Assembly: GCA_030430025.1 (NCBI GenBank)
Contig: JAUIGR010000023.1
Location: forward strand, 1 to 37,978
DNA: 37,978 nt
Source: Gammaproteobacteria bacterium
Lineage (GTDB): Bacteria > Pseudomonadota > Gammaproteobacteria > Xanthomonadales > Marinicellaceae
Direction of reading: 5' to 3'
Shown: positions 7,691 through 37,978 of the stretch, one piece after another
How the letters are laid out: every line of letters starts with the position of its first letter
How positions within the stretch are numbered: position 1 is the stretch's first letter
The notes under the pieces: model-generated
Database searches by the model: none
Seen by the model: only the letters and a program-made list of their open reading frames with translations
What the model was told of the DNA's origin: nothing
Program-made: the position numbers and the translations under genes

Positions 7691-7702
7691 TATGTGATTA
7701 AA

Positions 7703-8012
7703 TAGTCAGTCCTGAAAAAGTCCCTCCTGGCCTTTTCCCGCATCGGTCAAAAAAACACTTAAGCGCAAAAGTGTGATTTTGCTGATGTTTTTTGACCTCA
7801 CTTGAGCTTGACAGCTCAAGGTGGCACTTCCCTGTGCCACACCATCGACCAGAAAAAAGTTTCTGGAAAACTTTTTCACGTTAGCCTGAGAGCCACATGG
7901 AAGCGGCGAATAAAAATGCATCGTGACACCTGTTTCCTGATCGAAAAAATGTGCATAATTGAAATAACTCTGTATATTTAACAATAAGTTATGCATTTTT
8001 CAGATTCGACTA
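7703..8012 (+). repeat. Interspersed MITE-like repeat, copy B (full, about 310 bp)
   Basis: A full copy starting TA-GTCAGTCCTGAAAAAG at 7703 and ending TTTTTCAGATTCGAC-TA at 8012. The ends are imperfect inverted repeats and both are flanked by TA. The interior holds hairpins at 7801-7820 (CTTGAGCT/AGCTCAAG) and just after it (GTGGCAC/GTGCCAC), plus a longer outer stem (GGTCAAAAA with TTTTTGACC). The inner AAAAATGCAT recurs inverted as ATGCATTTTT near the right end. A 96-codon minus-strand reading frame crosses it but is not conserved in copy C. No transposase is present, so it would be non-autonomous. Confidence 0.88.
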
Positions 8013-8530
8013 AATATGATTTATTGACCCGAGTCATTCACTGGGTTTCTGTATTGATGATTACATCTGTGTTTTTTTCTGGGTTGTACATGGTCGATCT
8101 AGATTATTATAGCCCTTGGTATCAAACTATTCCGCAGTGGCACCAACTGATGGGTATTTCTTTAATGCTCTTATGGTTATATAAACTTTTTCGACTCAAA
8201 AAAATTACGGCATTATCTGCTTTAAAAACGCATAATATCATTGAGCGTCGTTTGGCTTTAATCGTCAAATGCCTTTTTTATGTGTTACTTTTTACAATTA
8301 CTATCAGCGGATATTTATTTACTACTTCAAGTGAAAGTCACGCTGTTATTTTGTTTGACCTATTTCAACTACCTCAACTGTTCACTTTTTCATCACAAAA
8401 CATTGATATTATGGGTTTGATCCATAAATACCTTTCATATTTTTTTATGGTTTTGGCGTTGATTCACGCGTTAGCTGCCATCAAACACCACTTTATCGAT
8501 AAAGACAATACTTTAAAACGCATGTTATGA
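7991..8530 (+). CDS. Cytochrome b561 family membrane protein
   Basis: A 179-residue protein with four hydrophobic helices: residues about 13-33, 47-65, 78-102 and 136-160. The candidate haem-ligand histidines are H17 (RVIHWVS), the H of QWHQLMG, and those of LIHKYLSYFF and ALIHALAAIKHHF. This is the di-haem b561/YodB/YceJ pattern: an inner-membrane electron carrier thought to accept electrons from quinol. It overlaps yceI by 3 bp, matching the yceJ-yceI pair of E. coli. The only good start, ATG at 7991, lies inside repeat copy B, so the first seven codons are repeat-derived and there is no strong ribosome-binding site. Confidence 0.88.
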   Translation: MHFSDSTKYDLLTRVIHWVSVLMITSVFFSGLYMVDLDYYSPWYQTIPQWHQLMGISLMLLWLYKLFRLKKITALSALKTHNIIERRLALIVKCLFYVLLFTITISGYLFTTSSESHAVILFDLFQLPQLFTFSSQNIDIMGLIHKYLSYFFMVLALIHALAAIKHHFIDKDNTLKRML

Positions 8531-10430: not shown

Positions 10431-13949
<3,519 letters not shown>

Positions 13950-23532: not shown

Positions 23533-23835
23533 TAGTCTGTCCTGAAAAAGTCCCTCCTGGCCTTTTTCAGCATCGGTCAAAAAACACTTAAGCGCAAAAG
23601 TGTGATTTTGCTGATGTTTTTTAACTTCACTTGAGCCTGAAGGCTCAAGGTGGCACTTCTATGTGCCACACCATCGACCAGAAAAAAATTTCTGGAAAAC
23701 TTTTTTACGTTAGCCTGAGAGTCTCATGAAAGTGGCGAATAAAAATGCATTATGACACCCGTTTTCTGGTCGAAAAATGTGTAAAAAAAAATTCCTTGTA
23801 TTTAACAAAAAGTGATGCATTTTCAGGTTCGACTC
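23533..23835 (+). repeat. Interspersed MITE-like repeat, copy C (full, about 303 bp)
   Basis: Starts TA-GTCTGTCCTGAAAAAG at 23533 and ends TTTCAGGTTCGAC-TC at 23835, where the flanking TA has become TC. It holds the same hairpins as copy B: CTTGAGCC/GGCTCAAG at 23630-23649, then GTGGCAC/GTGCCAC. The C-G pair closing the first hairpin is T-A in copy B. The reading frame that crosses copies B and E is broken here by an early stop (after the eighth codon), arguing against a coding role. It fills the gap between convergent rlmB and dsbC. Confidence 0.88.
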
Positions 23836-30822: not shown

Positions 30823-30869
30823 TAGTCAACCCTGAAAAAGTCCATCCTTGCCTTTTTCGGGACTGACTA
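30823..30869 (+). repeat. 47 bp terminal-only derivative of the interspersed repeat (copy D)
   Basis: Runs from TA-GTCAACCCTGAAAAAG to CTTTTTCGGGACTGAC-TA. Both ends resemble the left terminus of the full repeat, arranged as an inverted pair with 10 bp between. The two arms match at about 15 of 18 positions, so it forms a hairpin. It lies 8 bp after the DUF1232 gene stop. It looks like an internal-deletion or end-to-end product of the family. Confidence 0.75.
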
Positions 30870-35294: not shown

Positions 35295-35339
35295 GGCGTT
35301 TTTAAATCATTTGACAACGACTTTTTATATTTCATAATA

Positions 35340-35513
35340 GGCACCCTTGTTGAAAGGTGCCGCACAAGCGGTGAAACGGGAAGTTGGTTAGAATCCAACA
35401 CTGCCCCCGCAACGGTAATTGAAGACGAATCACATGCCACTGGATCATTAATCTGGGAAGGCGGTTCGTGAAGACATCAAGTCCTTCATTAGTCCGGAGA
35501 CCGACCTTCACAT
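35340..35513 (+). promoter_or_regulatory. Cobalamin (B12) riboswitch
   Basis: The leader of btuB contains the conserved blocks in order: AAGGTGCC, GAAACGGGAAGTTGG, GAATCCAACACTGCCCCCGC followed by AACGGTAA, TGCCACTGG, GGGAAGG, and the B12 box AGTCCGGAGACCGACC. When cobalamin binds, such elements shut off btuB. No intrinsic terminator is visible between the B12 box and the gene. ACCGA in the box could pair with TCGGT just before the ribosome-binding site, so translational control is more likely. Confidence 0.95.
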
Positions 35514-35542
35514 TTTAAAATCACATATTGCTCGGTGGGAGC

Positions 35543-37572: not shown

Positions 37573-37881
37573 TAGTCGAACCTGAAAAATGCTTAACCTA
37601 TTGTTAAATATAAGAAATTAATTCAATTTTACACACTTTTCGACCAGAAAATAGGTACTACGATGCATTTTTATTCGCCGCTTCCATGCGGCTCTCAGGC
37701 TAACGTGAAAAAGCTTTCCAGAAACTTTTTTCTGGTCGACGCTGCGGCACAAGGACGTGCTCACCTTGAGCCGTCAGGCTCAAGTGAGGTCAAAAAACAT
37801 CAGCAAAATAGCACTTTTGCGCTTAAGTGTTGTTTGACCGATTCTGAAAAAGGCCAGGATGGATTTTTTCAGGACTGACTA
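37573..37881 (-). repeat. Interspersed MITE-like repeat, copy E (full, inverted, about 309 bp)
   Basis: This copy is in opposite orientation to copies A-C. It runs from TA-GTCGAACCTGAAAAATGC at 37573 to TTTTTTCAGGACTGAC-TA at 37881. The hairpin CTTGAGCC/GGCTCAAG is at 37765-37784. A 71-codon plus-strand reading frame from 37663 (MHFYSPLPCGSQANVKK) matches the one in copy B over its first part, but it is frame-broken in copy C. It lies about 110 bp after btuB. Confidence 0.88.
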
Positions 37882-37883
37882 TT

Positions 37884-37900
37884 TAGTCAGCCCTGAAAAA
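37884..37900 (+). repeat. Lone repeat terminus next to copy E
   Basis: TA-GTCAGCCCTGAAAAA follows copy E after a 2 bp gap, head to head with its end, giving the palindrome CTGACTA-TT-TAGTCAG. The following sequence does not continue as the repeat. It looks like a leftover end of another copy or of a nested insertion. Confidence 0.65.
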
Positions 37901-37978
37901 CCCAGTTCTAATTATCCAGGTTATTTGTCACTCTGACGACTATGAATGTATTATTGTGTGTTGGCTGATCGATATACA
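37901..37978. other. Window end, no feature seen
   Basis: The last 78 bp contain no recognisable gene, repeat or signal. Confidence 0.4.

Follow-up and report, generated by a model that had tools for sequence, protein, structure and literature searches.

What moves the folded repeat that recurs along this piece of DNA, and what does its interior carry? The window, that is, the whole stretch of DNA analysed, is one entire contig of 37,978 bases (G000:C93; G000 is the genome of the window, 3.08 Mb, and the other G numbers are comparison genomes). The repeat is short, multicopy and without a transposase gene. A sequence-only reading had taken it for a MITE of IS630/Tc1-mariner origin that duplicates TA. 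The MITE was borne out but that origin was not, as a 6-bp empty site and IS5-family partners were found instead. Our best explanation, to which we give a probability of roughly 0.9, is a non-autonomous element whose movement depends on IS5-family (NF033578-like) transposases supplied in trans, which would cut at TANNTA and duplicate 6 bp. This figure covers the mobile-element part only, and the part that concerns CsrA is graded separately below.

Copies in the window and in related genomes

The following features were located in the window (coordinates, strand where there is one, feature):

1-182, plus: MITE copy cut by the contig start, with right flank TAATTA at 183-188
26-90, plus, and 37666-37730, minus: further matches to the GGA-hairpin module
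7699-7704: left copy of the 6-bp target duplication TAAATA, flanking the MITE at 7705-8010
7705-8010, plus: full-length 306-bp MITE copy, GTC...GAC
7821-7840, minus: native MITE hairpin hpC, with an ANGGAN hexaloop on the minus strand (CACAGGGAAGTG)
7854-7918, plus: captured GGA-hairpin module with hp1 loop CTGGA and hp3 loop ATGGAA
8011-8016: right copy of the target duplication TAAATA, flanking the MITE at 7705-8010
23535-23833, plus: MITE copy of 299 bp between convergent rlmB and dsbC, flanks TAATTA / TCATTA
30825-30867, plus: 43-bp minimal unit, made of the two ends and 13 bp, with differing flanks TGTTTA / TAATTA
37575-37879, minus: MITE copy of 305 bp, flanks TATTTA / TATTTA
37886-37978, minus: 3' end of an IS5-family-like insertion sequence (IS) that is cut off by the contig edge and includes what looks like the C-terminal stub of a transposase

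Copies were thus present where they had been described, with GTC-to-GAC spans at 7705-8010, 23535-23833 and 37575-37879 and a contig-start copy ending at 182. The small derivative reported beside them exists as the 43-bp unit at 30825-30867. The lone end reported at 37884 is also real, but it is the end of an IS, whose last ~95 bp lie in the window. An inner TA adjoins all ends in the window except the right end of the 23535-23833 copy, where TC is found, in agreement with the single exception already noted. The stop codon of dsbC lies at position 1 of the target of this same copy, and the MITE at 37575-37879 and the neighbouring IS end have a TATTTA spacer in common. The window begins inside a MITE and ends inside an IS, so that the contig is bounded by these repeats on both sides. 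The interior of the repeat is strongly folded, as had been proposed: 100 shuffles per strand give z = -4.6 for one strand and z = -4.3 for the other. The suggested density near oriC proved to be raised only mildly: the window, which was picked for its repeats, holds 7 exact ends versus 2.7 expected (Poisson p = 0.02), and this is only mild evidence of enrichment. Elsewhere in the window, two copies of TGTTTCACGTGAAACA (12911-12926 and 13523-13538), which we take to be identical to the ParB site parS, lie close to dnaA, and a cobalamin riboswitch (35337-35523) lies upstream of a TonB-dependent receptor gene.

The 17-mer end TAGTCNNNCCTGAAAAA occurs exactly 113 + 109 times in G000 (222), compared with 0 + 1 for the reversed control. 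With the 310-bp copy as query, 40 of 229 first-look candidates were scored and all 40 matched, with identities of 88-100% and with three copies truncated where a contig ends, so that the genome search that had been proposed yields at least 40 matches in G000. End pairs called in the G000 sequence examined fall into size classes of 43, ~161, 246-249 and 299-309 bp. Among the 41 genomes searched, exact ends were found in G000 (222), G014 (17), G005 (11), G019 (1) and G023 (1) and were absent from the other 36; within the genus they were absent from 15 of 18 genomes. We aligned 44 rows from G000 with 13 of the 20 copies fetched from G014 and G005, the others being unpaired (four) or dropped for short or poor ends (three). 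A 60-bp insert is present in 39/44 G000 rows versus 0/13 rows from the relatives. Since it occurs in most G000 rows and in none of the relatives', the 246-bp form is the shared form. The 306-bp form, which was seen only in G000, consists of this shared form and a hairpin module of 60 bp. The MITE has expanded in the G000 lineage. Orthologous loci without the repeat were also found: the rlmB-dsbC spacer is a few tens of bases long and unoccupied in G006 and G013, and in G015 it measures ~480 bp and holds no element (in the rlmB loci of the other 13 relatives, dsbC was not found).

A MITE with IS5-family ends

The size of the target duplication could be read directly at one locus. Inside a decayed IS on contig C2, a filled site reads AACAAC-TATTTA-[246-bp element]-TATTTA-AACATT. 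A second copy of the C2-type IS, at the end of contig C49, is unoccupied and has one TATTTA (AACAACTATTTAAACATT); this is the sole base-exact empty site found. With one TATTTA at the empty site and two at the filled site, six bases are duplicated, not TA, and the expectation of empty sites carrying a single TA was not upheld.

Flanks of other copies in G000 are consistent with this. Around full-size pairs, the flanking 6-mers are identical in 28/47 and differ by at most one base in 42/47, and TANNTA fits 44/47 left and 38/47 right flanks; these counts retain one pair of 239 bp and one of 241 bp that may be mis-paired. The middle NN matches in 36/47 pairs, versus a mean of 9.7 after partner shuffling (maximum 20 in 10,000). 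For the 43-bp units, of which 13 were called, including four that resemble pieces of longer broken elements, the NN match in 5/13 is not significant (2.9 expected; 1266 of 10,000 shuffles reach 5), and the 6-mers are identical in 3/13 and differ by at most one base in 6/13. Taken alone, the G000 data fit equally well a 6-bp duplication or a 2-bp duplication between fixed TA pairs, which they cannot tell apart.

Related IS decide between the two. From 445 loci with transposases related to that of C45, the best 80 were taken, and ends, which in this IS group are close to GTCGNCCCTGAAAAA, were called on both sides in 67. Identical 6-mers flank 30/67, and 17 of those 30 deviate from TANNTA yet are equal on both sides (for example TAATTG, GAAGTA, CAATTA and TATTTC); a single IS, present in several copies in one Planctomycetaceae genome, accounts for six of the 17. 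End pairs in this first count had been picked partly by flank similarity. When ends were chosen by quality alone, identical 6-mers were again found in 30/67, or in 30/54 with good ends. Six further loci have identical 7-mers, that is, 7-bp duplications, and the 31/67 with neither identical 6-mers nor 7-mers look old, chimeric or mis-paired. Because related IS carry 6-mers that depart from TANNTA and still match on both sides, the 6-bp duplication is settled, and a 2-bp duplication with element-owned TA, which had fitted G000 alone, is ruled out. As judged from these flanks, the MITE duplicates 6 bp with the consensus TANNTA.

Two IS in G000 have the same ends as the MITE. In the C45 copy (1457 bp, flanks TAATTA/TAATTA) the transposase is divided between two frames; the decayed C2 copy has the same flanks TAATTA/TAATTA and holds the nested 246-bp MITE flanked TATTTA/TATTTA. 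The right end of the MITE, GTCGAACCTGAAAAA, is one end of the C45 IS. Its left end, GTCAGTCCTGAAAAA, is the right end of the C2 IS and also an IS-like end that resembles the upstream region of the C2 IS and runs off contigs C33, C39, C58 and C76. Seven contigs, among them that of the window, break off within another IS end (TAGTCAGCCCTGAAAAACCCAG...), as would be expected if an IS had multiplied recently and been collapsed by the assembler. Read by eye, the stub in the window translates to an apparent C-terminus like that of the C2 transposase, so the statement that the window holds no transposase was nearly right, this stub running off its right edge. Pieces of the C2 transposase score above the Pfam cut-offs for DUF772 and DDE_Tnp_1. 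The best match of the IS frames is NCBIfam NF033578, at 152 and 91 bits versus a whole-protein cut-off of 275, which they miss because the frames are broken; no match over this cut-off was found in G000. Nor did we find an intact transposase gene in G000: C45 has a split one, C2 a decayed one, and the assembly collapses the repeated IS where contigs end. Present mobility is therefore something we infer.

The MITE thus resembles IS of the IS5-family NF033578 group (transpos_IS5_1) and their MITEs in its ends GTC...CCTGAAAAA and its 6-bp TANNTA duplication. It differs in that the IS encode DUF772 and DDE_Tnp_1 whereas the MITE has no transposase gene, and no significant similarity between MITE and IS was detected beyond the 15-bp ends (best shuffle p = 0.03 among 16 comparisons). 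In the mechanism that we favour, the shared ends GTC(A/G)NNCCTGAAAAA would be recognised by IS5-family transposases, which would mobilise the element in trans by cutting at TANNTA, with duplication of the 6 bp. An IS630/Tc1-mariner MITE with TA duplication, for which TA next to nearly every end and one DDE_3 gene fragment in G000 could be cited, is so improbable that it can be set aside: the empty site has one TATTTA and the filled site two, 17 related IS loci show identical 6-mers other than TANNTA, matching ends and flanks were found on IS5-family elements and not on the full IS630-like element that had been anticipated, and the 3.3-kb locus around the only DDE_3 (IS630-type) match in G000, a 151-aa frame, has no MITE-type end with two or fewer mismatches and three chance-like matches with 3.

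We also considered a 2138-bp end pair in locus L054, which surrounds a 296-aa frame without a Pfam match, as an autonomous element and rejected it; by eye, it is a MITE interrupted by another repeat, plus a second fragment. This other repeat family, with ends like AGACCTCTGCATAAGTCG, lies inside a MITE copy at L054 17720-17890 and at the right flank of L005. As a mobile repeat, the MITE adds to a known kind of element. Correia elements, ERIC and RUP are structured elements of 100-300 bp that occur near gene ends in many copies and duplicate TA. The MITE described here is like them in size, structure and placement at gene ends but duplicates 6 bp, not TA.

Enrichment of insertions at stop codons

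Elements were excised in silico from 366 kb of G000 (20 stretches selected for their exact ends, plus the window), and occupied TANNTA sites were compared with unoccupied ones relative to ORFs of at least 90 codons, sites less than 300 bp from a stretch end being dropped. Elements used here and in the stop-codon, orientation and rlmB-dsbC analyses had been filtered for TA on both sides. The 37 occupied sites comprise 10 at stop codons, 25 intergenic and 2 coding (35/37 non-coding), compared with 17, 326 and 1064, respectively, for the 1407 unoccupied sites. Occupied sites are enriched at stop codons relative to intergenic positions (odds ratio 7.7, p = 3.5e-5), and occupied intergenic sites are more often within 50 bp of the 3' end of a facing gene (14/21 versus 54/257 unoccupied; p = 2.4e-5). 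A looser count gives stop-codon sites in 15/56 versus 14/317.

In this wider set of 56 elements, the 15 on a stop codon are of two kinds. In 8, TAA is the first triplet of the target and is kept; in the other 7 of 15, the stop starts at target position 5, and the first base of the element, G, turns TA into TAG. By this reading of the junctions, insertion preserves translation stops. At the single locus 7991-8530 in the window, a cytochrome b561 ORF has its ATG supplied by the right end of the MITE; its flanks, read by eye, suggest that the original GTG start (GTGATTAAATATGAT) was split off by the insertion.

Copies sit outside genes, mostly just 3' of stop codons and often exactly on one. Lying behind stop codons, the element would join the 3' untranslated RNA, as its placement suggests. 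No orientation bias of the MITE to the upstream gene was found among copies within 50 bp (12/23), and this random orientation gives no support for a strand-specific RNA role. Divergent spacers were not significantly avoided in the 366-kb set (p = 0.28). Random orientation and the position of 35/37 copies outside genes speak for an ordinary selfish MITE, in which the hairpins would be fold-back remnants or bidirectional terminators without a protein-specific role and the 3' placement would reflect selective tolerance. The stretch scanned for terminator-like stems, in which one was found versus 0.4 expected, points the same way. We regard such an element as a serious possibility that falls somewhat short of even odds, and the evidence that counts against it comes from the hairpins themselves.

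Hairpin cargo with covarying stems and fixed GGA loops

Hairpin hpC, which is native to the MITE and unrelated to the 60-bp module, reads GGCACANGGANGTGCC on the opposite strand, and its loop is ANGGAN in 49/57 rows. In the G000 rows, its two N columns are the second and third most variable of 305 (entropy 1.48 and 1.46 bits, median 0.16), while there is hardly any variation in the A, the GGA and the stem (0 to 0.44 bits for stem and GGA).

The 60-bp insert belongs to a separate family of hairpins, which was detected with a covariance model built from 12 sequences whose loops were GGA. Matches were found in 16/18 genomes of the genus, with none in G003 and G010; there are at least 98 in G000, at least 30 in G014 and at least 1-18 in the others. 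Another genus of the family has at least 3 in G019, 24 in G021 and 11 in G023, and weak matches, 1-3 each, occur in G022, G027, G028, G030 and G033. These counts are floors, as scoring used strict filters and was limited to 121 candidates per genome, and the 98 matches in G000 were not each checked for lying within a MITE.

In the relatives, 61 matches in 34 loci (53 distinct rows) pair in 97.7% of cells, and 16/18 stem pairs show compensatory changes. The covariation score is 0.596, compared with at most 0.130 when partners are slid by 1-3 columns, and 0/500 shuffles reach it. The alignment of the 61 matches had been fitted to the structure, which favours this score; the seed alignment by MAFFT, made without the model, gives 0.549 versus at most 0.127. 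Wobble pairs are few (19 cells versus 21 non-standard cells). Loops contain GGA in 50/53 rows for hp1, mostly as CTGGA or CAGGA, and likewise in 50/53 for hp3, of which 37/53 are ANGGAN hexaloops; a GGA bias from the seeds is possible in these counts, and weak matches near 25 bits mostly carry GGA too. The two GGA loops lie 35-47 nt apart in 54/61 rows with both found and 31 nt apart in the 306-bp form. Hairpin hp1 has a 9-bp stem and a 5-nt loop, and its neighbouring bases are mostly CACG or CATG, with GACG in some variants.

Several module loci lie elsewhere in these genomes. Within an A-run of the decayed C2 IS transposase gene, a module (G000:C2 11575-11651; L049, L220) is placed as if it were itself mobile, and this copy shows that an IS transposase gene has been entered as well. 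In L041 (1335-2041, G011:C3), L045 and L217, runs of modules follow a tRNA gene on its downstream side; adjacent to them are Rfam sX4 matches that include a tRNA and are sub-threshold. Modules in L041 alternate in orientation along ~1 kb with only one small ORF; ORFs overlapping some module loci are mostly small frames and were not counted as genes. Module copies in G014 carry a leader (GACCTTTGCTCGATTCG...) similar to the AGACCTCTGCATAAGTCG-ended repeat family. Known RNA families were rejected as the identity of MITE or module: none of the modules in the 11 loci searched is overlapped by an Rfam match at E <= 1, a RsmY match in L217 is sub-threshold (23.4 bits versus a cut-off of 57) and does not overlap the module, and the window's MITE gave sub-threshold matches only.

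Loops that stay fixed while stems are free are not predicted by neutral fold-backs or plain terminators, and this counts against the selfish-MITE explanation: hpC combines a nearly fixed A, GGA and stem with N columns among the most variable of the element, and the module stems are rewritten by compensation while the loops stay GGA. Alternatively, the 60-bp module could be a REP/BIME-type DNA palindrome resembling the CGTC-tagged class, with loops recognised as DNA, for example by a transposase. It shares with the GTAG and CGTC classes short hairpins, inverted pairs (frequent among modules, as in L041 and L045, and reminiscent of REP dimers) and an intergenic position, and the scarcity of wobble pairs fits a DNA palindrome. 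Hairpin hp1, with its 9-bp stem, 5-nt loop and adjoining CACG/GACG, is like the CGTC class, for which the portion of PMC3733652 consulted gives stems of 8-9 bp and loops of 4-5 nt. A GTAG-type REP mobilised by RAYT was rejected, as no Y1 transposase (PF01797) was found in G000, G005 or G014 (nor in G006, G012 and G016; 12/18 genomes of the genus have matches). CGTC repeats are described in the same portion as having no dedicated transposase (PMC3733652), so the missing Y1 gene is not evidence against a CGTC-type reading. What does stand against it is that the module keeps its loops while its stems vary, whereas REP classes are there defined by end tag plus palindrome (PMC3733652), and that the unrelated hpC of the MITE shows the same ANGGAN loop. 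We consider a REP/BIME palindrome unlikely, though worth keeping in view.

The loops of hpC and module match the binding motif of CsrA/RsmA. Its site is quoted as CANGGANG, A/UCANGGANGU/A and RUACARGGAUGU in a passage of PMC6849547, an ANGGAN hexaloop is described for RsmZ-2 in an excerpt of PMC3791407, and CsrA can bridge two sites 10-63 nt apart according to an excerpt of PMC7652899. The module has ANGGA(N) in its loops and two predicted sites within the 10-63 nt spacing, and we infer from these likenesses that CsrA may bind. G000 encodes a 72-aa CsrA, and a CsrA gene is present in 15/18 genomes of the genus, with no match in G008, G010 and G014; G014 is the relative with the most module matches (at least 30), yet it is without a CsrA match in a genome that is 94% complete. 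No CsrB was found in G000. ANGGAN hairpins around rlmB in the relatives, at loci that were not screened for the module, show no excess (1 versus a mean of 1.2 per trinucleotide). Csr/Rsm RNAs (CsrB, RsmZ, RsmY) likewise have repeated GGA-loop hairpins, the ANGGAN hexaloop and the CANGGANG core, as seen in the excerpts of PMC3791407 and PMC6849547, but each of those is one dedicated sRNA, whereas the element described here is dispersed, mobile and has its loops on both strands.

A transposable CsrA/RsmA-binding element, in which an ANGGAN-hairpin MITE captured a second CsrA-type module on the other strand and spread it, is our tentative reading of this cargo, and we put it at just under an even chance. 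The native hairpin shows its ANGGAN loop on one strand, and with the module two GGA-loop hairpins have been gained by the 306-bp form on the other, so that a transcript in either orientation may offer CsrA/RsmA-type sites and the element would be a dispersed CsrA-binding element besides a selfish one. Among the papers listed in searches of open-access PMC text, judged by titles and abstract openings, none described a MITE with these ends or a transposable CsrA-binding element.

For the IS5 group, these results provide a clear target and duplication rule: TANNTA, with 6 bp duplicated and sometimes 7. The unusual part is the cargo: in the native hairpin of the MITE as well as in a captured module that is found family-wide, the ANGGAN loops are fixed and the stems covary freely. 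If the tentative reading is true, insertion in either orientation would give mRNA 3' ends CsrA sites, making the element a mobile, dispersed counterpart of the CsrB/RsmZ sponge. If CsrA binds, transposition into 3' untranslated regions would be a means of rewiring or buffering a global post-transcriptional regulator, and the origin of CsrA sponges would become directly testable.
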